From Spartobacteria bacterium (GTDB taxonomy: Bacteria > Verrucomicrobiota > Verrucomicrobiia > Chthoniobacterales > UBA10450): DNA of 64,000 nt. Location of the stretch: NCBI GenBank assembly GCA_003167365.1, contig PMTM01000006.1:268391-332390 (forward strand), given 5' to 3'. The position numbers and the translations under genes were made by a program. A model generated the notes under the pieces. The model was not told the DNA's origin and did no database searches. It worked only from the letters and a program-made list of their open reading frames with translations. Positions 20,331-44,739 of this stretch are shown here, piece after piece (position 1 is the first letter of the stretch; each line of letters starts with the position of its first letter).

Positions 20331-20768
20331 TCAGGACGCTGTGCGTGCAGGCAGGTTTTCTTCGATGCCTTCGATCAAGTCCGAAAAACTGATCGGCTTG
20401 GCCAGAAATGGAAGTCCCTGGATATTCAAGCCCGATCTTGTTTTGTCCTTTGTCACAAGAGCCGTAAGGAAGACAATTGGCGTTCGGTGCAATGCCGGAT
20501 CGGATTGAATCCGCGCGGCGACTTCCCCGCCGTCCGTTTCCGGCATCGCCACATCCAGCAGGATAAGATCCGGCTTAAGATTCTGCGCCGTTTCATGAGC
20601 CTTGTTCGCGTCATTCTCTTCAAAGACGAAGTAGCGGCCCGTCTTCTCCAGTGCAAGTTTGGCAGAGCGAGTAAGGTCGTGGTTGTTATCAACAATCAAG
20701 ATGCGCGGCTTATTCTCGATCGCTTCAGAGTCTTGCGGGAAAAAGTCTACTTCAATGGTTCTGCTCAT
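20331..20768 (-). CDS. Single-domain response regulator (CheY-like)
   Basis: 145 residues: a short N-terminal extension, then one receiver domain with the acidic pocket (ILIVDNNHD), phospho-acceptor Asp72 (LILLDVAMPETDGG), the Thr/Ser position in VFLTALV and the Lys of FLAKPIS. No output domain is present. The ATG lies 8 bases after the sigma-factor stop, so the two are co-transcribed. This suggests the receiver influences the sigma factor or a partner kinase, but no anti-sigma or kinase gene is adjacent. Confidence 0.9.
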   Translation of the reverse strand: MSRTIEVDFFPQDSEAIENKPRILIVDNNHDLTRSAKLALEKTGRYFVFEENDANKAHETAQNLKPDLILLDVAMPETDGGEVAARIQSDPALHRTPIVFLTALVTKDKTRSGLNIQGLPFLAKPISFSDLIEGIEENLPARTAS

Positions 20769-20776
20769 AATATCTT

Positions 20777-21625
20777 TTAGATTGCAACCGAAAGCCCGAT
20801 GGGATCCTCCCTTTGGTTGAGCGCGTGGCGCAGTTTCGAGAGCGCGATGTTCTGCAATTGGCGGATACGTTCGCGCGTGACGCCCAATGCCGCGCCGACT
20901 TCCTCGATCGTCTTCCGCGCTCCGCCGTCGAACCCGAAACGCTGGGAAATAATCTTCTTCTCTCGGTCGTTGAGCACGTCGAGCAACCCGCCAACTTCGT
21001 TGTTCAGGTCTTTGTCGCGCAATGATTCAAACGGCGTTCGCGCCCCTTCGTCCCCGACACTTTCTCCAAACTCCGTCAAATCATCGTCACTGATGGGGGC
21101 GTCGAGCGAAGCAGGCTGAATCGCAACGGTTTTCAATTGCGAAACCTTTTCACTGACGATGCCGATCTCTTCGCCGAGCTCGTCATCAGTTGGTTCGCGC
21201 CCGAGCTCCTCGCTCATCTGCAGCGCAACGCGGCGCATCTTCGACACTTTATCGCCGAGATGAACGGGCAATCGGATTGTCTTGGCCTGATTGGAGAGGG
21301 CGCGCTTAATGGATTGCCTGATCCACCATGCCGCATAAGTGCTGAGCTTTGCGCGTTTGGATGGATCGAACCGCTCGACGGCTTTGATCAATCCGATGTT
21401 TCCTTCGGAAATAATGTCGAGAAGGGGCAAACCGAGATTCACGTAGCCGCGTGCGATCGTCACCACGAGCCGCAAATTCGAACTGATCATGAGCGCGCGC
21501 GCCTTGCGATCGCCTTTCTTAATTTTGGCGGCGAGTTCGATCTCCTGTTGCAGCGTCAAGAGCGGGATTCGCCCGATCTCACGCAGATAAAGCCTTATTC
21601 CAGTATCGTTATTTTCGGCAATCAT
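20777..21625 (-). CDS. RNA polymerase sigma factor, sigma-70 family (RpoD/RpoS-like group)
   Basis: 282 residues with sigma regions 1.2 to 4. Region 1.2 is DTGIRLYLREIGRIPLLT, region 2 includes LRLVVTIARGYVNLGLPLLDIISEGNIGLIKAVERFDP and YAAWWIRQSIKRAL, and region 4 has TIEEVGAALGVTRERIRQLQNIALSKLR. There is no region 1.1, which points to an alternative (group 2) factor rather than the housekeeping one. The upstream leader carries copy A of the conserved leader element. It is co-transcribed with the response regulator. It is a natural candidate to control the stress genes nearby, but that is inference. Confidence 0.93.
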   Translation of the reverse strand: MIAENNDTGIRLYLREIGRIPLLTLQQEIELAAKIKKGDRKARALMISSNLRLVVTIARGYVNLGLPLLDIISEGNIGLIKAVERFDPSKRAKLSTYAAWWIRQSIKRALSNQAKTIRLPVHLGDKVSKMRRVALQMSEELGREPTDDELGEEIGIVSEKVSQLKTVAIQPASLDAPISDDDLTEFGESVGDEGARTPFESLRDKDLNNEVGGLLDVLNDREKKIISQRFGFDGGARKTIEEVGAALGVTRERIRQLQNIALSKLRHALNQREDPIGLSVAI

Positions 21626-21681
21626 ATAGCTTTAATGAAGTGGTTGTTAAACGCTCAAACCTATCCGCGCTCTCCTATTTA

Positions 21682-21756
21682 CCGCCATTGGACGATTGTA
21701 GGATTTTGCCATGCCACTTAAGAACTGATGGGTGCTCCCTCTTTTGAGATAGAGGG
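21682..21756 (-). promoter_or_regulatory. Leader element copy A, upstream of the sigma-factor operon
   Basis: On the minus strand a CCCTCT...AGAGGG hairpin (with inner CTC-AAAA-GAG) ends in GAGGGA. Exactly 28 bases follow (21735 down to 21708), then AAAATCC at 21707-21701. It starts about 130 bases and ends about 57 bases before the sigma-factor ATG. It also covers the run-on 3' end of the broken dehydrogenase gene. Confidence 0.75.
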
Positions 21757-21757
21757 A

Positions 21758-22648
21758 AGGGGGGCTGCCGGACTGGCTCTTGACCAGTATCTCCCATCGT
21801 GAATTCGTAGATGGCCGAAAAATCCTCGGTGTCGTGTCCTCCGCGCATCGCCAGCCGATAGACTTCTTTGGTTACGTTCGTTAGGGGCATGGCCACGCCG
21901 GCTTCGTACGCGCTCACCGCGGTGAGATGCATGTCTTTCTGCATCCAGCGCAATGGAAATTCGGCTTCGTAGTTGCCACTCTCGATCTTCTCCCGCTTCG
22001 AAGCGAGAAACGGCGCAACCGCAGGCGTGCCAAGCAATGAATCGAACAACAGCTTTGACGAGAGCCCGAGCCCTTTGCCCAAAGCCATCGCTTCGGCGAA
22101 CGCGGCCATTCCGGTGCCTAACAAAAGATTGATCACCATTTTCATGGAAGTCCCGCTGCCATGTCCGCCGGTATGAACAATTTTACTGCCCAAGTACAGC
22201 AGGAGCGGGCGAATCCTTTCCAAGTCTTCCGTATCGGCGCCCACCCAAAAGATGAGCTTCACCACGGCGGCCACGGGAGCCGAGCCGGTCACAGGCGCAT
22301 CGACAAAACGAATCTGCCGTGCTGCGGCTGCCGTCGCCATTTTCTTGGAGAAAGATGGATTGACCGAACTGCAATCGACCCAAAGCGCCCTCGGCTTGAG
22401 ATGATTTAGAAAGCCGTTGCGACCCAGCGCCGCCTGCTCCACTGCATCCGGATGCGCCAGCATTGTGAACAAGACTCCACCTGCTCGGCAACTTTTGCTG
22501 GCGATTCCGTGAATGTTGCGCCGTTGTCGATCAACGGCTTCGCTTTCGCGCGCGTTCGATTGAATACGACCAAGTCGTAGCCGTGCTTTTGCAGGTTCGC
22601 CGCCATACGGCTCCCCATTATGCCTAAGCCAATGAATCCAATTTTCAT
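21758..22648 (-). pseudogene. 3-hydroxyisobutyrate dehydrogenase-like NAD(P) oxidoreductase, frameshifted
   Basis: From ATG 22648 (with an AAAGGA site upstream) the frame encodes a Rossmann start, MKIGFIGLGIMGSRMAANL. At about 22473-22477 one base is missing relative to the intact paralogue at 38832, and the rest (FTMLAHPDAVEQAAL to IYEFTMGDTGQ) continues in another frame. The paralogue reads GTGGACGTGTTG where this copy reads GTGGAGTCTTG. The sequences are otherwise very similar through the whole length. The normal stop is also lost, and the second frame runs on to 21675 through leader element A. It was probably co-transcribed with the aldo/keto reductase upstream. Confidence 0.85.
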
Positions 22649-33772: not shown

Positions 33773-34306
33773 CTAAGAGTTGCGCCTTGTTTCCGATAAG
33801 AACCAGGTGCGACGCTCGGTCTCATCGATCCAAACTTCGATCAGACTCGCTGTGGCAACGTCACGATGCTCGTCACAGACGTTGTGCGTCTCACGAAGAC
33901 GCGCGGCTAGCGTTTTATTGTCGTCGGCCAACTCGGCGATCATGTCCGGTGGATCGACATAATCGGCGTCGTTATCGAGCACGCGCTGAAGACGCGAGAT
34001 ATGGCCGATCGACTTGATCGTAAGTCCTCCAATCTTTCGAATTCGCTCCGCGATTGGATCTGTCATGGCGAAAAGCTGGTCGCCGTGTTCGTCGAGAAGT
34101 AAGTGGTAATCACGGAAGTGCGGACCGCTCATGTGCCAGTGGAAATTTTTGGCTTTCAGGTAGAGCGCGAACACATCCGCCAGAATAGCGTTCATGGCGC
34201 CAGCAATGTCTTTGGTGGCCGAACGCGTGAGATCGGTCGGTGTTGCCAGTGGAGCCTCGCGTCTCTGCCGAAGCTCTGAAATTTTTGTCGAACCATTTCT
34301 ACGCAT
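33773..34306 (-). CDS. dps: Dps, DNA-protecting ferritin-like protein
   Basis: 177 residues from ATG 34306, preceded by an AAGGAAAA site. The ferroxidase region KNFHWHMSGPHFRDYHLLLDEHGDQLF has the expected ligands His56, His68, Asp72 and Asp76. The N-terminal tail is basic (MRRNGSTKISELRQRRE), as in Dps proteins that bind DNA. Dps stores iron using peroxide and protects DNA in starvation or oxidative stress. A full leader element (E) lies upstream, which anchors the stress interpretation of that element. Confidence 0.94.
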   Translation of the reverse strand: MRRNGSTKISELRQRREAPLATPTDLTRSATKDIAGAMNAILADVFALYLKAKNFHWHMSGPHFRDYHLLLDEHGDQLFAMTDPIAERIRKIGGLTIKSIGHISRLQRVLDNDADYVDPPDMIAELADDNKTLAARLRETHNVCDEHRDVATASLIEVWIDETERRTWFLSETRRNS

Positions 34307-34568: not shown

Positions 34569-35282
34569 TTACAACTGAATCAAGCCGCGGCGCGTAGCAT
34601 TCGCCACCGCTTCGGTCCGGCTGATGACATTCATCTTGGCGAAGATGCTTTTCACATGCGACTTCACAGTGCCTTCACTAATAAAGAGGGCCGACCCGAT
34701 CTCTTTGTTGCTTTTGCCTTGAGCCATCAGCTTGAGTACGTCGATCTCGCGTTCGCTCAACGTTTCGCCGCTGACGCGTCGCGCGAGTTTGGCGGCGAGG
34801 TGCATCGGCACGCAGGTTTCGCCCGCGTGCACCCGGCGAATGCAATCCATCAATGCTTCGCGCGGTGCGTCCTTGAGCAGGTAACCTTTGGCGCCGGCTT
34901 GAATGGCGCGGTAAATATCTTCATCTCCGTCGAACGTCGTTAACACGATGATCCGCGCTTTCTGGTCGTTGCCACGAATTTCTTTAAGCGCACCGACGCC
35001 GTCCAGCTCGGGCATGCGCAAATCCAGCAGCGTTACATCGGGGCGATGTTGCTTCCAAAGATCGACGGCTTCGCGTCCATTGCCCGCTTCGCCGATAACG
35101 GTCATGTCCGCTTTCCGAGTGATGAGTGAAACCAGGCCTTCGCGGACAACGCTGTGATCGTCGGCGATCAGCACCGTTATCCGAGATTTTTTTGCCTCTC
35201 CACCTTTCGGCGCTTTCTTCGCAGATTTTGGTTTCTTTGCAGACTTCTTGGAATTCACCGCTGTTTTCTTTTTGGATGTCAT
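34569..35282 (-). CDS. NarL/FixJ-family response regulator
   Basis: 237 residues from ATG 35282, which overlaps the kinase stop as ATGA. It has a Lys-rich N-terminal tail of about 33 residues (KKK, KKSAKKPKSAKKAPK), then a receiver domain (IADDHSVVREGL, phospho-acceptor Asp87 in LLDLRMPELDG, Thr in VLTTFD, Lys in LLKDAP) and a LuxR-type helix-turn-helix (SEREIDVLKLMAQGKSNKEIGSALFISEGTVKSHVKSIFAKM). It is the partner of the upstream kinase. The histone-like tail is unusual and may add nonspecific DNA binding. Confidence 0.94.
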   Translation of the reverse strand: MTSKKKTAVNSKKSAKKPKSAKKAPKGGEAKKSRITVLIADDHSVVREGLVSLITRKADMTVIGEAGNGREAVDLWKQHRPDVTLLDLRMPELDGVGALKEIRGNDQKARIIVLTTFDGDEDIYRAIQAGAKGYLLKDAPREALMDCIRRVHAGETCVPMHLAAKLARRVSGETLSEREIDVLKLMAQGKSNKEIGSALFISEGTVKSHVKSIFAKMNVISRTEAVANATRRGLIQL

Positions 35283-37282
35283 GACATCGATTCTCCGTTG
35301 CACTGCAGTAGCACGGTGATCTTCGTGCCCTTACCACGTGTGCTGGTGATTTCCAATTCGCCGCCCATTTGCTCGACCCGCTCGCGCATTCCAGTTAGAC
35401 CCACGCCGTCATGTCGATCTTTGACTTTGAATCCGTCGCCGTCGTCACGCAATTCCAGACGAAGTTCTTTCGCCTTGTAGGTTAGCCGCGTTTCAAAGTT
35501 GCGCGCGTGCGCGTACTTGAGCGTGTTGGTCAGAGCCTCCTGGCCGATGCGGAGAAGATTTACCTGCCAGGGCTGAGGAAGCTCCGGAATTTTGCCTTTC
35601 GCTTCAAACGTTGCGTGAAGCGCTGTTCCAACGGTCGTGTTCTTAATAGTACCTTTGAGCGCCTCCCAGAAATTGTGTTCTTGCAAGGCTTGGGGACGCA
35701 ACGCGTGCACGGAGCGGCGCGCTTCGCTCAGACTGCGCCGAGCTAGCTCGCCGGCGCGGTGCAAATGATTGTCCGCTTCCTTACGGGAACCCAGGGAAAT
35801 TGCATCTTCGGCTGCTTCCAACTGGACAATTACGCCGGTAAAACCTTGCGCCAGCGTGTCGTGAATGTCCCGCGCCATTCGATTTCGTTCTTCGAAGACT
35901 GCAGCTCGCTGCCCTTGCTCGGCAAACTCATTGAGTTGAAGCGCAAGCATGACTTGATGCGCGAGCGCCTGAGTCAATTCGATTTCTTCAGGCCGATACG
36001 AACCGCCATAGAAATGGCGAATGCCAACAAAACCTCTGACCTCTCCACCTATGAACATCGGAACCGCGAGAAACCTTTTTGTCCCTCTTCGCTTCAAGTA
36101 ATCGGCCCAATCGCCACTGACTCGGGGATCAGTCTCGATGTCATCGCAAACCACGGGAGCTCCTGTGAAAATCAGTTCCTGCATGACCGGGTTCTGTTTC
36201 CACATCAATGGGTCCTTGATGAACGGATGCTCCGGGTCCGGCCCGGGCAAGTTTCCGTCTTCCCATGCTGAGCGTAAAAGAAGCGAGTCAGTGGATTTAT
36301 CCCATAGCCACAAAACGACGCTTTGCGCGTTCAACAAACGAGCAATTGTGCTGAGCATCTGTCCAATAAATTTTTCTGGATCAGGCGCGGTGGCCAGCAC
36401 ATCCAGACTCTGGGTCATCGCCTCCACCTGTCCGCGCGCCACTTGTTCGGACGCGCGCAGTGCTTCATTGCTTCGGCTGAGGTCGGCCGTTCGTTCTTTG
36501 ACTTTGCCTTCCAGCCCATCTCGCGCTTCCCGCAGCTCGTATTCGCTCTGGCGCAGAGAGGCCTCGGCTTGTTTGTGGTCGGTGATATCAGTGCAGGTCC
36601 CAAACCATTTCTCGATCTTACCTTCCTCGTCCCGGATCGGCACGCCACGCGTCTTGAACCAACCGTAAACACCATCCTTCCGTCGGACTCGGTACTCCAC
36701 ATCGTAAGGCGCGTGCCCCGAGACCGAATCCGTCCAGAATCTTCGGGTTGGCTCGTGGTCGTCGGGATGCAGCAACTTCATCCACTGCCAGCCAAGCAGA
36801 TCGATTTCGGGCACACCGGTGTAGTCTGTCCACTGCGTGCTGAAGTAGTCGCACGCGCCATCCGACGTGGCTCCCCAGACGAGTTGTGGCAGCGCTTCGG
36901 TCAATCCGCGCCAGCGTTGCTCACTGTCGCGCAGGCGATCCTCGGCGCGTTTGCGGCTGGTGCTCCATGAGCTAATAACCAACGCTGAGAGAAGAAATGC
37001 GACCGTGGTAGGGATATCCTGAACACTAAATTGAAATGCGAAGAACGGTTCGGTGAAGAAAAAGTTGATCGACAAAGTCGATAGCAAGACTGCCAGCAGC
37101 CCAGGTCCCGTGCCGCCAAACCACGTGCTCAGCAGAACGGCCGGGAAAAAGAGGGAGGTTCGTACGCCAAAACTTTCCAGCGGGAACGTAATGGCAGTGG
37201 AGATCGCGACTGATAGACCGGACAGACCGTACCGCCAAACGGCCGGCGCAACTCGTCCCAAACCAAGATCTGACTTCGACAT
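35279..37282 (-). CDS. Membrane sensor histidine kinase with PAS and GAF domains
   Basis: 667 residues. The N-terminal ~110 form about four transmembrane helices resembling the DUF4118 sensor region. A PAS domain follows (WRGLTEALPQLVWGATSDGACDYFS to GTCTDITDHKQAE, ~125-250), then a coiled coil, a GAF domain (~290-440), a HisKA_3 dimerisation domain with phospho-acceptor His474 (ARDIHDTLAQGFTG), and an HATPase (LTNTLKYAHA, DDGDGF, GVGLTGMRERV). It pairs with the NarL-type regulator by a coupled start. The signal is unknown. The leader-like fragment F upstream points the other way. Confidence 0.94.
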   Translation of the reverse strand: MSKSDLGLGRVAPAVWRYGLSGLSVAISTAITFPLESFGVRTSLFFPAVLLSTWFGGTGPGLLAVLLSTLSINFFFTEPFFAFQFSVQDIPTTVAFLLSALVISSWSTSRKRAEDRLRDSEQRWRGLTEALPQLVWGATSDGACDYFSTQWTDYTGVPEIDLLGWQWMKLLHPDDHEPTRRFWTDSVSGHAPYDVEYRVRRKDGVYGWFKTRGVPIRDEEGKIEKWFGTCTDITDHKQAEASLRQSEYELREARDGLEGKVKERTADLSRSNEALRASEQVARGQVEAMTQSLDVLATAPDPEKFIGQMLSTIARLLNAQSVVLWLWDKSTDSLLLRSAWEDGNLPGPDPEHPFIKDPLMWKQNPVMQELIFTGAPVVCDDIETDPRVSGDWADYLKRRGTKRFLAVPMFIGGEVRGFVGIRHFYGGSYRPEEIELTQALAHQVMLALQLNEFAEQGQRAAVFEERNRMARDIHDTLAQGFTGVIVQLEAAEDAISLGSRKEADNHLHRAGELARRSLSEARRSVHALRPQALQEHNFWEALKGTIKNTTVGTALHATFEAKGKIPELPQPWQVNLLRIGQEALTNTLKYAHARNFETRLTYKAKELRLELRDDGDGFKVKDRHDGVGLTGMRERVEQMGGELEITSTRGKGTKITVLLQCNGESMS

Positions 37283-37657: not shown

Positions 37658-38077
37658 ATGAACGCTGCGAAAGGATCAATCGTGGTCAAGGCGCCCGTGG
37701 CCGACGTCTACGAACGCTGGCTGGCATTTGAAGATTATCCAAAGTTCATCACCGCGATCAAACGGGTGCGGAAATTGGATGCAAACCATTTTGTCGCATC
37801 GCTCGCTTTCAACGGAAAGCAATATGACGCGATGCTTGAAATTATGCTGCGGGTCTTTGAGCGAAGGCTGGCGTGGCGAACTATTTCCAACGGTCATGCG
37901 CCCGATCACCTCGCGGCTGGAGTCGTTTCGTTCACGTCGCTTTCCGACCAGAACACGTGCGTGACCCTGAAGCTGACCTCAAGCTTCGGCGGCGCCGTCT
38001 CGCGTCGAGTCGACGGGTATCTGGACAATTTCAAACGGTTAATCGAGGGACCGGCGGGATCGAAGGCGAACGCCTGA
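37658..38077 (+). CDS. SRPBCC-fold (polyketide cyclase/START-like) protein
   Basis: 139 residues matching the SRPBCC helix-grip fold: SIVVKAPVADVYERWLAFEDYPKFITAIKRVRKLD is the typical opening of coenzyme-Q-binding/cyclase-like family members, and the last helix is RRVDGYLDNFKRLIEG. Such proteins bind hydrophobic ligands in a deep pocket; the ligand is unknown. There is no signal peptide, so it is cytoplasmic. It is the first well-supported gene of the + strand stress cluster. Confidence 0.8.
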   Translation: MNAAKGSIVVKAPVADVYERWLAFEDYPKFITAIKRVRKLDANHFVASLAFNGKQYDAMLEIMLRVFERRLAWRTISNGHAPDHLAAGVVSFTSLSDQNTCVTLKLTSSFGGAVSRRVDGYLDNFKRLIEGPAGSKANA

Positions 38078-38174: not shown

Positions 38175-38240
38175 TGATTGCACGCGATACCTTGACGTGT
38201 GAAAACGAACTGCTTCGAACCCTTCCCGGAGGAAATTACC

Positions 38241-38456
38241 ATGTCTCAACAAATTCATTCTTACAGCGAGCTTCAGCAGCAGATCCACCAAGACCTGCGC
38301 CGCCAACATCCGGACTGGGTTGAGCCCAACGGCAACTGTCCCACCTGCGACTCCTACGAGTTGCGTTTAGCCGAACTGATCGGACTCAGTCGGTCCTCGA
38401 ACGCCATACCAACGTTCGAATCATCATCCGCGATGAGCCAGGCCGCAGCGGCTTGA
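38241..38456 (+). CDS. Small protein with a CPTC motif
   Basis: 71 residues from ATG 38241, chosen because of a strong GGAGGAAATTACC site; an ATG-less longer frame begins at 38199. It has a helical N-terminus (SQQIHSYSELQQQIHQDLRRQHPDWVEPNG), a single NCPTCDSYE motif, and a polar Ser/Ala tail. One CxxC alone could bind a metal as a dimer or act in redox chemistry. I do not recognise a family. It is the first gene of an operon with the thioredoxin-like gene. Confidence 0.65.
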   Translation: MSQQIHSYSELQQQIHQDLRRQHPDWVEPNGNCPTCDSYELRLAELIGLSRSSNAIPTFESSSAMSQAAAA

Positions 38457-38487: not shown

Positions 38488-38826
38488 ATGAAAACGACCA
38501 TTGAGATCAATGAAGCGAACTTCGAAACCGAAGTTTTGAAATCCAGTCAACCGGTGCTGGTCGAGTTTGCCACGGGATGGAGCCTTCCTTCGATGATGAT
38601 GAACGGAGCGATGGACGAAATTGCCGCCGAGTTTGTCGATTGTCTGAAGGTCGCCCGCGTTAAACTCGATCGCAGCCCGAACCTCGGGTTGTGGTACGGG
38701 ATTCGATGCCTTCCGGCGATATTGTATTTCAGCGACGGCGAAGTGCGCATTGGGATTTTTGGAACCACCAGCAAGGACGCAATTCTTTCTCAGTTGAGAC
38801 CAGTTATGGACTCAGGGCGCATATAA
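38488..38826 (+). CDS. Thioredoxin-fold protein lacking the active-site cysteines
   Basis: 112 residues that align to thioredoxin along the whole length: PVLVEFATGWSLPSMMMNGAMDEIAAEF where thioredoxin has the WCGPC active site, then VARVKLDRSPNLGLWYGIRCLPAILYFSDGEV with the cis-Pro region (RCLPAI). Both active-site cysteines are replaced by Ser (Ser32 and Ser35). It therefore cannot do dithiol exchange in the usual way. A binding, chaperone or scaffold role is inferred. A ribosome-binding site is weakly visible (GAGGCTGAAACATG). It lies 31 bases after the CPTC gene. Confidence 0.85.
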   Translation: MKTTIEINEANFETEVLKSSQPVLVEFATGWSLPSMMMNGAMDEIAAEFVDCLKVARVKLDRSPNLGLWYGIRCLPAILYFSDGEVRIGIFGTTSKDAILSQLRPVMDSGRI

Positions 38827-38831
38827 TTAGA

Positions 38832-39722
38832 ATGAAAATTGGATTCATTGGTTTAGGCATCATGGGTAGCCGCATGGCGGCGAACCTGCAAAAGCGCGGC
38901 TACTCCCTGGTCGTATTCAATCGAACGCGCGGCAAAGCGCAGCCGTTGCTCGATCAAGGTGCGACATTCGCTGATTCGCCGCCAAAACTGGCGGAGCAGG
39001 TGGACGTGTTGTTCACAATGCTGGCTCATCCCGATGCAGTCGAACAAGCAGCGTTGGGCACGAATGGATTTTTGAGTCATCTCAAGTCGAATGCGCTTTG
39101 GGTGGATTGCAGCTCGGTTAATCCTTCGTTCTCGAAGAAGATGGCGGCGGCGGCCGCGGCCGGCCGGATCCGTTTTGTCGACGCGCCCGTGACCGGTTCC
39201 GCGCCGGTGGCCGCCGATGGGAAACTCATTTTTTGGGTAGGCGGTGATGCCGCGGACGTGGAAGCAATTCGCCCGTTGTTGCTGTGCATGGGAAACAAAA
39301 TTGTTCATGTCGGCGGACATGGGATGGGCACTTCCATGAAAATGGTGGTCAATCTTTTGTTAGGCACAGGAATGGCCGCGTTCGCCGAAGCAATGGAGCT
39401 TGGCCAGGGGCTGGGGCTTTCGCAGAAGATGCTGTTTGATTCATTGCTCAGTACGCCGACGGTCGCGCCGTTTCTTGCGTCCAAGCGGGAGAAAATCGAG
39501 AGCGGAAATTACGAAGCTGAATTTCCGTTGCGCTGGATGCAGAAGGATATGCATCTCGCTTCGGTTAGTGCCTACGAAGCCGGCGTGGCCTTGCCCGTAG
39601 CGAACGTAACCAAAGAAATCTATCGGCTGGCAATGCGCGGCGGACACGAGAGTAAGGATTTTTCGGCCATCTACGAATTCGCAATGGGCGACGACGGAAA
39701 GGAGCGGGGAACTCAACCATGA
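38832..39722 (+). CDS. 3-hydroxyisobutyrate dehydrogenase-like NAD(P) oxidoreductase
   Basis: 296 residues from ATG 38832, directly after the thioredoxin-like gene. It has the Rossmann motif GFIGLGIMGSRMAANL, the substrate-binding segment FVDAPVTGSAPVAADGKL and the catalytic Lys region GTSMKMVVNLLLGT. The family includes 3-hydroxyisobutyrate, tartronate semialdehyde and succinic/glyoxylate reductases. It is the intact near-twin of the frameshifted copy at 21758-22648, so one arose by duplication within this region. The stop overlaps the next gene as ATGA. Confidence 0.9.
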   Translation: MKIGFIGLGIMGSRMAANLQKRGYSLVVFNRTRGKAQPLLDQGATFADSPPKLAEQVDVLFTMLAHPDAVEQAALGTNGFLSHLKSNALWVDCSSVNPSFSKKMAAAAAAGRIRFVDAPVTGSAPVAADGKLIFWVGGDAADVEAIRPLLLCMGNKIVHVGGHGMGTSMKMVVNLLLGTGMAAFAEAMELGQGLGLSQKMLFDSLLSTPTVAPFLASKREKIESGNYEAEFPLRWMQKDMHLASVSAYEAGVALPVANVTKEIYRLAMRGGHESKDFSAIYEFAMGDDGKERGTQP

Positions 39723-40651
39723 TAAAGACAATCTCCTATCTCGGTCTCGGGACCATGGGCAGCGGCATGGCCTCGAACCTTCTCAAAGCCGGCTACGAAC
39801 TTACCGTCTGGAACCGGAGCGCTGAAAAATGCGAGCCGTTCGCCAGGAAAGGCGCGCGCGCCGCCGATACTCCAGCCGACGCCGTCCGCGATGTGGATCT
39901 TATCATGTATAGCTTGAGTAACGACCAAGCGGTCGAGGAAGTTGTCTTTGGCGCGAAAGGAATTCTAAGTGGAATCAACGAAGGCCAGATCGCGATCGAT
40001 ATGAGCACGGTCCTTCCCGCGACGAGTTTGCGAGAAGAGGAAGCTTATGCAAAAGACGGTGTCGATTTTCTCGACGCGCCTGTCTTTGGTAGCAAACGAG
40101 AATCCGCGGACGCCAAGCTATGGATTATGGCCGCGGGCAACCAGGCCATCTTTGAAAAAGTGAAACCCATCTTGGAGCATTTGGGGCAAACCGTTCACTA
40201 CTTTGGCAAGAACGGAAACGCCGCAGCCATGAAGCTGGTGGGAAACCTCATCGTCGCGTTGGAAATGGAAGCGCTCGCGGAAGGCCTGGTCCTCGCGCAA
40301 AAGGCCGGCCTTGATCTGAATACCGTGATGGAAGTCGTAAAAGTCGCCGACTTCCGCTCACCGTTGCTCGTCAGCAATGGTCAGAATATTTTGAAACGCG
40401 ATTTTTCGGCCAGCTTCGCCCTCAAGCTCATGCTCAAGGATGCGGGCCTTATTGAAAAATTTGGTGACAGTCTGAAGTCACCCATTCCCGCACTGCGCGT
40501 TGTCGAAAAAAACCTCGCAACGGCCGTTGCCCTTGGCTTCGGAAATGAAAATGCCTCTGCCTTAATCAAGGCGCTCGAAAAAGAAGCCGGTGTCGAAGTG
40601 AAAGGCGTTCCCACTCGACAGAACTTGCAAATAAGTCGGAAGCAATCATGA
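39719..40651 (+). CDS. NAD-dependent beta-hydroxyacid dehydrogenase family protein
   Basis: 310 residues of the same superfamily as the gene before it but clearly divergent: SYLGLGTMGSGMASNLLKAGYELTVWNRS at the N-terminus, FLDAPVFGSKRESADAKLW for substrate binding, and the catalytic Lys in NAAAMKLVGNLIVALEMEALAEG. It is coupled at both ends (ATGA overlaps with neighbours on each side). Two sister dehydrogenases in tandem suggest sequential or heterologous use on small aldehydes or hydroxyacids such as glyoxylate derivatives; the substrate is unproven. Confidence 0.88.
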   Translation: MIKTISYLGLGTMGSGMASNLLKAGYELTVWNRSAEKCEPFARKGARAADTPADAVRDVDLIMYSLSNDQAVEEVVFGAKGILSGINEGQIAIDMSTVLPATSLREEEAYAKDGVDFLDAPVFGSKRESADAKLWIMAAGNQAIFEKVKPILEHLGQTVHYFGKNGNAAAMKLVGNLIVALEMEALAEGLVLAQKAGLDLNTVMEVVKVADFRSPLLVSNGQNILKRDFSASFALKLMLKDAGLIEKFGDSLKSPIPALRVVEKNLATAVALGFGNENASALIKALEKEAGVEVKGVPTRQNLQISRKQS

Positions 40652-41259
40652 AAAAACAACGAGCGAAGATAAAAACTTACCTATTCATTGCAGGAGGACT
40701 CATCTCTATGGCTGGAGTTCAAACACCAATTGTCGCGGCGGAGGAAGACAGCGGGGCCTATGTGGCTTCTCAAAAGGTCGAGAAAGGCAAAGCTCCTGGG
40801 ATGCGAGTTCAGCTTTTGAGTGAAAATCACGGGCGCAAGGAATATGCGGTGATTTTCAGCAAAGGAGACGAAGCATTCTCAGGCTTGAATGAGTTTGCCG
40901 AGAAATATCGGGTGACGAGCGCTCATTTCACGGCAATTGGAGCTTTGCGTGGAGCGACGCTCGCTTGGTTCTCCCCCGAGCGGAAAATGTACAAGAGGAT
41001 CCCCGTAGAAGGCCAGCTCGAGGTTGCTTCAATGATCGGCGACATCGCGCTATTCAATGGAAAGCCCGTTGTTCATACCCATATGGTAATCGGCCTTCCT
41101 GACGGAAGCGCCAGGGCAGGACATGTTCTCGAAGCACACGTTTGGCCTACGCTCGAGGTGATGGTCACGGTCGAACCGAAGGCCATGCGCAAGCGCCTCG
41201 ATCCAGAAACTGGATTATCGCTGATTGATCCAAGTTTGGTGAACGAGGAACAGAAATAA
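40648..41259 (+). CDS. Exported PPC/DUF296-domain protein
   Basis: 203 residues. The N-terminus is a signal peptide (KKQRAKIKTYLFIAGGLISMAG, likely cleavage near VAAEED). The rest is a PPC (DUF296) domain: SAHFTAIGALRGATLAWFSPE, then PVVHTHMVIGLPDGSARAGHVLEAHVWPTLEVMV, with a His cluster (His143, His145, His159) placed as in metal-binding members. Most bacterial PPC proteins are cytoplasmic, so an exported one is less usual. It ends the operon that starts at 38241. The function is unknown. Confidence 0.8.
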   Translation: MKKQRAKIKTYLFIAGGLISMAGVQTPIVAAEEDSGAYVASQKVEKGKAPGMRVQLLSENHGRKEYAVIFSKGDEAFSGLNEFAEKYRVTSAHFTAIGALRGATLAWFSPERKMYKRIPVEGQLEVASMIGDIALFNGKPVVHTHMVIGLPDGSARAGHVLEAHVWPTLEVMVTVEPKAMRKRLDPETGLSLIDPSLVNEEQK

Positions 41260-41457: not shown

Positions 41458-44400
41458 ATGTGGATCATTCGTCTAGCTCTTAATCGGCCTTACACGTTTG
41501 TAGTAGCAGCGCTGCTTCTACTCTTAGTAACGCCGTTTGTCCTGATTCGCACACCGACGGATATCTTTCCGTCGATTAACATTCCGGTGGTCAGTATCAT
41601 TTGGGGCTACACCGGGCTGAGCGCGCGCGACATTGAGCAGCGCATCATTTACACGCAGGAACGCGCGCTGACCACCACGGTCAATAACATCGAGCATATC
41701 GAGTCCACCTCGTACGATGGGATCGGCATTATCAAACTTTACTTTCAGCCGGGCGTTACGATCTCCACCGCCGTCGCTCAAGTCACCGCCATCTCACAGA
41801 CGATCCTAAGGCAGCTCCCACCTGGCTCGACACCACCGCTCATCATCCAGTACGACGCCGCCACCGTTCCCGTTCTGCAATACGGCATTGGCAGCAACAC
41901 GCTTTCCGAACAACAGACTTTCGACATCACGCTCAATCAGATTCGCGTCGGTCTGGTCAGCGTGCCGGGCATCGCCATTCCTTATCCTTTCGGCGGCAAG
42001 CAACGACTGGTCTCGGTCGATCTCGATCCGAGAAAGCTGCAGGAAAAGAACCTGACACAAACCGATGTCACGAACGCGATTAACAATCAGGCGCTGGTCT
42101 TTCCCAGCGGCACAACCAAGTTTGGCGCGATCCAATACCCGATCGACATCAATACTTTTCCGGGGCGTATCGACAGCCTGAACGATCTGCCGATCAAAGT
42201 AGTCGATGGCACGCAGATTCTAGTCGGCGACGTCGCCCAGGTGCGTGACGGTTACGACCCGCAACAAAACATTGTTAGGCAGGATGGCGTTCGCAGCACC
42301 CTGCTTAGTGTTTTCAAGAGCGGCAGCGCTTCCACTCTCAGTGTCGTCTCCGGAGCGAAGCAGGCGATGGCGAACGTTCTGAAAACGGTTACGACCGCCG
42401 TTCAGGTAAAAGAGTTCGCCGATCAATCGCTCTTTGTCCGCGCGGCGATTAGCGGCGTTGCGAGAGAGGGTATCATCGCCGCCGCCTTGACCGCGCTAAT
42501 GATACTCTTGTTTCTAGGTTCGTGGCGCAGCACAATTATCATTGCCATATCGATCCCGCTCGCGGTGCTGTCATCGATCGCGATCCTTAGCGTAATCGGC
42601 GAAACAATTAATCTGATGACACTCGGCGGCCTTGCTCTGGCCGTCGGTATTCTCGTGGATGACGCCACCGTAACGATTGAAAATGTCGAGCGTCACATGA
42701 GTCTGGGAGAGAAGCTGGAGGACGCAATTCTCAAGGGCGCCGGGGAAATCGCGCTGCCGGCGTTCGTCTCAACACTCTGCATCTGCATTGTGTTTGTCCC
42801 GATGTTCCTTCTTTCGGGGGTGGCGCGTTACCTTTTCGTCCCGCTGGCCGAGGCCGTCATGTTCGCAGTCGCCGCCTCCTATCTCCTGTCCCGCACTTTG
42901 GTGCCGACACTGATCATGTGGTTCGAGCGCAACCATCACAAAGTCGTCACGGCGACTCCGTCCGATGGCGGACAGGGCGAAGCGACTTCGTCACGTAGAG
43001 GAGATAGCGACAAGCAGCAAGTTGCACTCTGGATCCGGCCGTTTGCTGCTCTCCAACAACTGTTTGAGCGCGGGTTCGATCGCATGCGCACCAGTTATCA
43101 CGACTTGTTAGGCACGATCCTGACGCACCGTCTTGTCTTTGCCGTCGTCTTTCTCGCGCTTTGCACAGGTTCATGGATCCTCGTGCCCTTTCTCGGTCAA
43201 GACTTCTTCCCGGCGGTGGATGCGGGATCATTTCAATTGCACGTGCGCGCGCTGGCCGGAACGCGCGTCGAAGAAACAGCCAACCTCGTCGATCAAGTAG
43301 AAGCCGCGATCAGAGCGCGGGTCCCGGCGCAGGAACTCCAGGGAATTGTCGACAATATTGGCCTTCCAACCTCCGGGATTAATTTGAGTTACAACAACAG
43401 TGGCGTAGCTGGATCGGCCGACGCTGACGTTCTCGTCGCACTGAAACCAAACCATCAGCCGACCGCAAATTACGTGCGGCAATTGCGGCTCGATCTGCAC
43501 CAGAAATTTCCCGGCGCCGAGTTCTATTTCCTGCCGGCCGACATCGTTACCCAAACAATTAACTTTGGACTACCGGCGCCGTTCGACATTCAGATTTTAG
43601 GCCGCGATCTGGCGACGGACCACAAGATCGCCGGAGAGCTGGCGCAGAAGCTCCGGCGCGTAACCGGCGCGGTCGATGTTCGTGTGCAACAGCCTGCGCA
43701 TTTGCAACGACTCCGATTTGACATCGACCGAACCAAGGCTGCTGGCGTCGGGCTCACCGAAAGCAACATTGCTAGTTCGGTCCTATTAAGCCTCAGCGGT
43801 AGTGGCCAAACGGCGCCGAGCTATTGGGTCGATCCAACCACGGGAGTTAATTATCTCGTTAATGTCCGCACACCGGAGTACCGGCTGACATCGCTCGACG
43901 CACTCCAATCGCTGCCGGTGAGCGCTCCGACGACGCCGGGCGCCGCTAACGGACAGCTCTTGACGAACCTGGCTTCATTTACCCGGACGAACAGCCAACC
44001 GATTTACTCGCACTACAACATTCTGCCCGTGGTCGATGTTTACGGCGGAATTTCTAATCGCGATCTCGGCGGCGTCTTGAGCGACATCAAGCCGATCATT
44101 GCCGAAGCACAAAAAACTTTGCCGCGCGGCACTTCAATCATGCTGCGTGGTCAGGCGTTAACGATGAACTCCAGTTTCATCGGACTGAGTGTTGGTCTGA
44201 TCATGGCGGTCGCGCTTATTTACCTGCTGCTCGTGGTGAACTTCCAAAGCTGGCTCGATCCTTTCATCATTTTAACGGCATTGACCGGCGCGCTCGCCGG
44301 CGTGATCTGGGGACTGTTCGTCACGGGGACAACGCTGAGCGTGCCCGCAATGATGGGTGCGATCATGTGCATGGGCGTCGCGACTGCCAACTCGGTGCTG

Positions 44401-44739
44401 GTTGTTACCTTCGCGCGGCAGCAACTCGATGAAGGATTGGATCCATTGCACGCCGCATGGGAGGCGGGCACGACACGCTTGCGGCCGGTGTTGATGACCG
44501 CCTTGGCCATGATCATCGGCATGTTGCCGATGGCGCTTGGTCTGGGCGAAGGCGGCGAACAAAATGCCCCGCTCGGCCGTGGTGTCATCGGCGGTTTGAT
44601 GATCGCCACGGTCGCCACATTATTTTTCGTGCCGGTGGTGTTTAGTCTTCTGCACCGGTCGTCCGCTGCGCAACGCAATTCCAAACCTGAGGAAACAAAT
44701 CCGGCGCAAGGATTGGGCGCAGCCCTTCCTGCAACCTAA
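41458..44739 (+). CDS. RND-family efflux permease (AcrB/MdtB-like)
   Basis: 1,093 residues with the RND layout: a first transmembrane helix at ~10-30, a large periplasmic loop (MFP-docking and porter subdomains), six helices at ~330-490 with the proton-relay segment ALAVGILVDDATVTIENVERH, a second porter loop, and six more helices to ~1060. An additional polar insertion of ~45 residues (HKVVTATPSDGGQGEATSSRRGD) lies in the central cytoplasmic loop. It is a proton-driven efflux pump, probably for small hydrophobic compounds. The adaptor follows; no outer-membrane channel gene is adjacent. Leader element H precedes it. Confidence 0.95.
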   Translation: MWIIRLALNRPYTFVVAALLLLLVTPFVLIRTPTDIFPSINIPVVSIIWGYTGLSARDIEQRIIYTQERALTTTVNNIEHIESTSYDGIGIIKLYFQPGVTISTAVAQVTAISQTILRQLPPGSTPPLIIQYDAATVPVLQYGIGSNTLSEQQTFDITLNQIRVGLVSVPGIAIPYPFGGKQRLVSVDLDPRKLQEKNLTQTDVTNAINNQALVFPSGTTKFGAIQYPIDINTFPGRIDSLNDLPIKVVDGTQILVGDVAQVRDGYDPQQNIVRQDGVRSTLLSVFKSGSASTLSVVSGAKQAMANVLKTVTTAVQVKEFADQSLFVRAAISGVAREGIIAAALTALMILLFLGSWRSTIIIAISIPLAVLSSIAILSVIGETINLMTLGGLALAVGILVDDATVTIENVERHMSLGEKLEDAILKGAGEIALPAFVSTLCICIVFVPMFLLSGVARYLFVPLAEAVMFAVAASYLLSRTLVPTLIMWFERNHHKVVTATPSDGGQGEATSSRRGDSDKQQVALWIRPFAALQQLFERGFDRMRTSYHDLLGTILTHRLVFAVVFLALCTGSWILVPFLGQDFFPAVDAGSFQLHVRALAGTRVEETANLVDQVEAAIRARVPAQELQGIVDNIGLPTSGINLSYNNSGVAGSADADVLVALKPNHQPTANYVRQLRLDLHQKFPGAEFYFLPADIVTQTINFGLPAPFDIQILGRDLATDHKIAGELAQKLRRVTGAVDVRVQQPAHLQRLRFDIDRTKAAGVGLTESNIASSVLLSLSGSGQTAPSYWVDPTTGVNYLVNVRTPEYRLTSLDALQSLPVSAPTTPGAANGQLLTNLASFTRTNSQPIYSHYNILPVVDVYGGISNRDLGGVLSDIKPIIAEAQKTLPRGTSIMLRGQALTMNSSFIGLSVGLIMAVALIYLLLVVNFQSWLDPFIILTALTGALAGVIWGLFVTGTTLSVPAMMGAIMCMGVATANSVLVVTFARQQLDEGLDPLHAAWEAGTTRLRPVLMTALAMIIGMLPMALGLGEGGEQNAPLGRGVIGGLMIATVATLFFVPVVFSLLHRSSAAQRNSKPEETNPAQGLGAALPAT

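Follow-up and report, generated by a model that had tools for sequence, protein, structure and literature searches.

The window analysed here is a 64,000-nucleotide stretch of a Spartobacteria bacterium contig (PMTM01000006.1), and within it lies a gene cluster encoding a thioredoxin-like protein without catalytic cysteines (the SLPS protein) together with a small protein (CPTC). The genes and motifs of this region are as follows.

33773..34306, − strand: ferritin-like protein (Pfam PF00210), which we take to be Dps
34569..35303, − strand: response regulator with receiver and LuxR/GerE domains
35279..37282, − strand: histidine kinase (DUF4118, PAS, GAF, HisKA_3), divergent from the cluster
37658..38077, + strand: SRPBCC/polyketide-cyclase-like protein (PF03364), first gene of the cluster, with orthologues found
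38241..38456, + strand: CPTC small protein, 71 aa; ATG at 38241, after GGAGG, is the likely start
38488..38826, + strand: SLPS protein, thioredoxin fold, 112 aa, no catalytic cysteines
38578..38592, + strand: WSLPS motif (W31-S32-L33-P34-S35) in place of WCGPC
38707..38715, + strand: Cys74-Leu75-cis-Pro76, a clade-specific cysteine two residues before the cis-proline (cis-Pro76 at 38713-38715)
38832..39722, + strand: NAD-binding beta-hydroxyacid dehydrogenase-type protein 1 (PF03446/PF14833)
39719..40651, + strand: NAD-binding beta-hydroxyacid dehydrogenase-type protein 2 (PF03446/PF14833)
40648..41259, + strand: PCC/PPC-domain protein (PF03479), with a leader-like N-terminus by eye
41458..44739, + strand: RND efflux pump inner-membrane protein of the AcrB family (PF00873, 645.5 bits)

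The SLPS gene starts with an ATG preceded by GAGG, and its product scores 54.3 bits over residues 4-103 with the Pfam thioredoxin profile (PF00085), whose cut-off is 23.5. An AlphaFold model built from a 26-row alignment has a mean pLDDT of 88 and compares closely with E. coli thioredoxin 2trx (TM 0.90, rmsd 0.8). The initial annotation held that both catalytic cysteines of a thioredoxin fold have been replaced by serine with the rest of the fold, including the cis-proline region, conserved, and this is borne out: profile, motif and model together confirm a predicted full thioredoxin fold with WSLPS for WCGPC, and cis-Pro76 and Gly92 are retained in the alignment (numbering follows E. coli thioredoxin, aligned by the motif and the cis-proline). 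The NCBIfam cut-offs for TrxA equivalogs are not reached (TIGR01068, 54.6 of 96.8; NF006898, 64.9 of 138), and PHROGs has no family for either the SLPS or the CPTC protein. Because the dithiol is gone, established thioredoxin chemistry predicts that disulfide-reductase activity has been lost. The same annotation called the protein redox-dead, a term that fits the missing dithiol but is too strong overall, as a conserved thiol, Cys74, remains and may yet be redox-active.

The neighbours named earlier, a CPTC protein, two dehydrogenases and an exported PPC protein, are all present, with export of the last judged by eye only from its N-terminus. Histidine kinase, SRPBCC protein and RND pump make up the most frequent arrangement, in which CPTC, SLPS, the dehydrogenases and the PCC protein are changing inserts; the locus in genome G003 differs in having no SRPBCC orthologue in front. 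At loci L032, L034 and L036 the dehydrogenase and PPC genes are not next to SLPS, and CPTC is the gene found most constantly beside it.

Profile searching across 213 genomes of the order identifies an intact SLPS gene in seven of them, belonging to four genera: the window, G148 (locus L031), G018 (L032), G179 (L033), G152 (L034), G022 (L035) and G003 (L036). These score 212-235 bits, and the five other matches at E 1e-25 or better in the same search score about 95-100 bits and all have CxxC. The other six proteins are 71-86% identical to the window copy; a search of 58 relatives returned orthologues at 86, 78 and 71% plus a partial match in G023, and a scan of GTDB species genomes returned the six loci L031-L036 at 71-86%, followed by a gap to 56% and below. 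None of the seven proteins has the CxxC dithiol; all carry SLPS, as well as the segments EFA[TA]GWSLPS and YG[IV]RC[LIV]P. Every fetched sequence with more than 60% identity is of the SLPS type, and CxxC appears only at 56% or below. The condition that the initial annotation named as refuting it, an ordinary CxxC in near relatives, is thus not seen among them. With seven intact genomes, a shared motif and dN/dS below 0.25, a lone degenerate copy is ruled out, as is a sequencing or assembly error, since the motif recurs in seven genomes.

The SLPS gene is under purifying selection, with dN/dS (Nei-Gojobori) of 0.11-0.24 in all 21 pairs. The codon for S35 is variously TCG, TCA, TCC or TCT, that for S32 AGC or AGT, and that for C74 TGC or TGT; synonymous variation at S35 and C74 indicates that it is the protein and not the DNA that is kept. 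The description of the gene as kept in a stress operon thus holds for its retention; the binding or chaperone role proposed with it is a candidate function, and the stress role is a suggestion from the neighbours, among which the kinase, the LuxR-type regulator, the ferritin-like protein and the RND pump hint at such a role. SLPS is nonetheless dispensable, given its patchy distribution and its decay in one genome. In G023 (G023:C346) a remnant at L177 557-1315 has a broken frame that runs into the PCC gene, and CPTC is missing from the locus, an apparent joint loss of the two genes.

We compared the SLPS proteins with 90 distinct CxxC homologues. D26E, W28A, C32S, G33L, C35S, P40G and V60L are fixed in the clade, K57 is R in six proteins and T in one, and D61, P76 and G92 are unchanged. 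W69 and C74 are fixed in SLPS proteins, which also hold G67, and each of the three is found in 0/90 CxxC homologues, F91 is fixed and found in 0/87 with a letter at that position, and the clade holds G30 (1/90 CxxC homologues), Q102 (rare or absent elsewhere) and P105 (likewise, with only 26 homologues comparable there). The catalytic set thus appears to have changed as a block, with the cis-proline region kept and re-tuned. Retention of Pro76 proves little by itself, since comparison between groups of the thioredoxin fold is reported to find the cis-proline better conserved than CxxC (PMC2757866). R73 and G92 are present in all seven proteins, and position 72 is isoleucine in six of them and valine in the seventh, but residues 72 and 73 are no special sign, being common in ordinary thioredoxins (I72 or V72 in 90/90 CxxC homologues, R73 in 57/90). 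Overall the protein resembles TrxA in its fold, in W31, P34, cis-Pro76 and Gly92, and in being a single domain of about 110 aa with no leader (by eye), whereas it departs from TrxA in its serines, in positions 26, 28, 40 and 57, and in its equivalog scores.

The CPTC protein, whose open frame extends upstream to a GTG at 38199 although the ATG at 38241 is preferred, matches no Pfam, NCBIfam or PHROGs family above cut-off. Its own family is larger than that of SLPS, with 127 matches in 54 of the 213 genomes of the order and up to eight per genome; CPTC therefore does not need SLPS, which only seven genomes hold. The family core is HxxxxxxHPxW...GxCPxC, in which the first cysteine is not strict: H30, H37, P38, W40 and G45 are present in 51/51 distinct members and C50 in 50/50 members with a letter there, and position 47 is Cys in 34 of the 51, Ser in 16 and His in one. 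Both cysteines are kept at the six SLPS loci that have CPTC. The replacement of Cys47 in 17/51 members weakens the case for CPTC as a strict redox CxxC partner, and serine at this position speaks against a fixed four-ligand zinc site formed by H30, H37, C47 and C50. The structure model is poor (pLDDT 55), with two helices predicted at low confidence, and the only PDB sequence match (E 0.32) is taken as chance. CPTC genes are at times located beside kinase and LuxR genes, and some are near two-component and ferritin-like genes. Among viral contigs there were four pattern matches and no relative among them.

CPTC is directly upstream of SLPS in 6/6 assessable loci, the seventh (L031) being left out as its contig begins 25 bases before SLPS. 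We also took SRPBCC orthologues with an identity of 70% or higher as anchors, which gave 12 loci: an intact SLPS gene is present in five of the seven with CPTC and in none of the five without, with G018 counted as positive because its SLPS gene, known from other searches, is just outside the stretch fetched around SRPBCC. Loci G010 and G151 have CPTC without SLPS, four loci have neither gene within about 1.5 kb, the broken remnant of G023 makes up the fifth locus that lacks CPTC, and none of the five without CPTC has a CPTC match elsewhere on the same contig. The association is weak (one-sided Fisher of about 0.03, by hand arithmetic on 12 loci, post hoc), and the linkage may be mere co-inheritance within an operon.

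A LuxR-type response regulator is encoded near SLPS, and NarL is a regulator of this same type. In Salmonella, NarL pulls down wild-type TrxA, and TrxA with both catalytic cysteines replaced is reported still to bind OmpR and most of the other regulators tested (PMC9584953). The contacts reported for TrxA (PMC9584953) correspond, renumbered by the cysteines, to SLPS residues 72-75 and 92-94, of which SLPS shares I72 (V in one protein), R73 and G92, whereas the docking residues G, A and L differ at 74, 93 and 94, residue 94 being T or A in all seven. Salmonella TrxA moreover keeps its redox activity, and its binding is an experimental finding, whereas that of SLPS is a prediction.

Because a thioredoxin without its dithiol can still bind, as Salmonella TrxA does with its cysteines replaced, we favour SLPS as a binding protein: with a probability of roughly 0.55, it is predicted to have lost its reductase chemistry and to be retained as a dedicated non-catalytic protein-binding module, so that it is probably no longer an enzyme and probably serves to bind proteins within a gene cluster that is likely to act in stress response. 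It would grip its partner through the old substrate groove (W31, P34, I72, cis-P76 and G92), re-tuned within the clade by L33, W69, C74 and F91; that these residues line the groove is what known thioredoxin structures lead us to expect. The likeliest partners would be the product of the CPTC gene just upstream or one of the transcription regulators encoded at the locus. The complex would not be covalent, although Cys74 might enter a mixed disulfide when oxidised, and by binding SLPS would protect or control its partner within a two-component-linked stress and efflux cluster. If so, SLPS is a case in which nature has parted the two roles suspected for thioredoxin, chemistry and protein binding, and selection has tested the outcome; the changes fixed in the clade then point to the residues required by a thioredoxin that only binds, with the CPTC protein and the sigma and response-regulator gene products as candidate partners. 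The alternatives considered below overlap with this reading and with each other, and our estimates for them do not sum to one.

Redox-inactive thioredoxin proteins are an already known kind, CnoX and HyaE being examples. SLPS has a weak match to HyaE/HupG (PF07449, 18.5 bits), likewise a thioredoxin-fold family, but this is below the Pfam cut-off of 22, for which reason membership is rejected; the neighbours of SLPS given to Pfam include no hydrogenase family. A rather unlikely alternative is that SLPS is a CnoX-like monothiol protector whose Cys74 forms mixed disulfides under oxidative stress, be it with clients, CPTC or a second SLPS molecule. CnoX/YbbN has a thioredoxin domain without a working dithiol and another conserved cysteine, of which Cys74 of SLPS may be the counterpart, and CnoX proteins with SXXC are reported to hold a second conserved cysteine that in E. 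coli is needed for mixed disulfides (PMC6282202). Cys74 is moreover fixed in exactly the clade that lacks CxxC (7/7 proteins against 0/90 CxxC homologues), and in crystals of shrimp and human thioredoxins molecules are linked by disulfides through Cys73, which likewise precedes the cis-proline by two residues (PMC6270739). The same source, however, calls the Cys73 dimer doubtful in vivo (PMC6270739). SLPS further differs from CnoX in having SxxS for SXXC and another gene context, and at 112 aa it has no TPR domain detectable with Pfam, whereas CnoX has one at its C-terminus; Cys74 may simply pack the remodelled groove.

The origin of SLPS raises a further possibility, which is a refinement of the protein-binding module that we favour. 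In a tree of 63 rows and 108 columns, whose inner forks are poorly supported, SLPS proteins form one clade (support 100/99) with a long stem branch (1.03). This groups with a clade of CxxC proteins from Limisphaerales-type Verrucomicrobiota (96/97) rather than with the family's ordinary TrxA. The long-branch row L048 is also inside this group, and one row of the CxxC clade, L039, is labelled Acidobacteriaceae. Descent from the host's own TrxA is therefore unsupported. In six of the seven rows of this CxxC clade, all except L039, a sigma-70 gene is located 3' of the thioredoxin gene, 9-85 bases away in five rows and about 0.5 kb away in L043. The WCGPC thioredoxin and sigma-70 pairs are at these coordinates.

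L037, 4262-5680
L038, 8001-9381
L040, 8001-9376
L041, 3815-5312
L042, 1917-3600 (sigma factor by BLAST only)
L043, 8001-10108 (sigma factor in a longer open frame)

The sigma factors are otherwise about 340 aa, and this gene order suggests that the neighbours may form a functional pair in these Verrucomicrobiota. In a class-wide sample (286 genomes, 30 loci fetched), a sigma gene is within 1.5 kb in two of the five best-scoring loci (L178, which repeats L037, and L179) compared with 0/25 of the others. In G003, the first-branching member of the SLPS clade, a gene for a 282-aa sigma-70 factor is just upstream of CPTC-SLPS, and the window encodes a relative of it.

20777..21625, − strand: sigma-70 factor, 282 aa, sharing 73% identity with the G003 factor encoded beside CPTC-SLPS

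SLPS could thus be a non-catalytic descendant of a sigma-linked thioredoxin that acts on a sigma factor or a LuxR-type regulator, although we regard this as unlikely. A sigma gene adjoins the locus only in G003 among the seven SLPS genomes, that of the window being 17 kb from SLPS; the inner tree forks are poorly supported with 108 columns; and no sigma gene is near L180-L182 or L039, which their score or tree position places in the same class. Patrx2 of Pseudomonas aeruginosa is comparable as an atypical cytoplasmic thioredoxin tied to a stress sigma factor, but it is reported to keep CGHC and isomerase activity and to be regulated by AlgU (PMC12830090). In its fullest and similarly doubtful form, the idea is that a thioredoxin lineage linked to an RpoS/RpoD-like sigma-70 gave rise to SLPS, which together with CPTC would form a dedicated adaptor controlling the regulator of a soil-bacterial stress island, the regulator being either a sigma factor or a LuxR-type response regulator; a thioredoxin would then have been turned into a pure signalling part. 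Sigma matches number 94 in 83 genomes of the family, of which eight share a contig with a CPTC match, many contigs being too short to judge. Seven of these pairs are 0.4-45 kb apart (17 kb in the window) and one is 488 kb apart, so that the idea of an island rests on seven.

We consider it very unlikely that SLPS is a regulatory decoy that occupies thioredoxin reductase or thioredoxin clients and so damps ordinary thioredoxin. The window's genome does encode an ordinary WCGPC thioredoxin (G000:C11), and the retained W31, P34, cis-Pro76 and G92 would suit such a role, but W28, K57 and G33 have been replaced and bulky residues are new to the clade, a pattern that fits a new partner better than the former ones. 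Least likely of all is a relaxed relic, a thioredoxin copy in which drift erased the catalytic site and whose own loss is under way, for although the patchy distribution (7/213 genomes), the decayed copy in G023 and the long stem branch are in keeping with it, present-day copies have the low dN/dS ratios given above, and the same motif and clade-specific residues recur in seven genomes of four genera, the holding of the same dozen residues arguing against drift.

Among the literature matches listed there is no published CxxC-less bacterial thioredoxin like SLPS and no thioredoxin-sigma gene pair. What appears to be new is thus a stand-alone SxxS thioredoxin clade that is kept by selection, tied to CPTC, and joined to a sigma-linked thioredoxin lineage.

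Two further observations concern other gene groups. The minus-strand run at 20331-22472 of the window, 17 kb from SLPS, contains a further dehydrogenase copy, the sigma-70 gene and a receiver-like protein (the first and last recognised by eye), and is possibly part of the same island as SLPS. In L048 (5049-5387), a Verrucomicrobia thioredoxin has WSDPC and has lost its first cysteine; by eye, its cluster appears to include a sensor gene, a response-regulator gene and UspA-like genes, and it may be a second case of redox loss near regulators.
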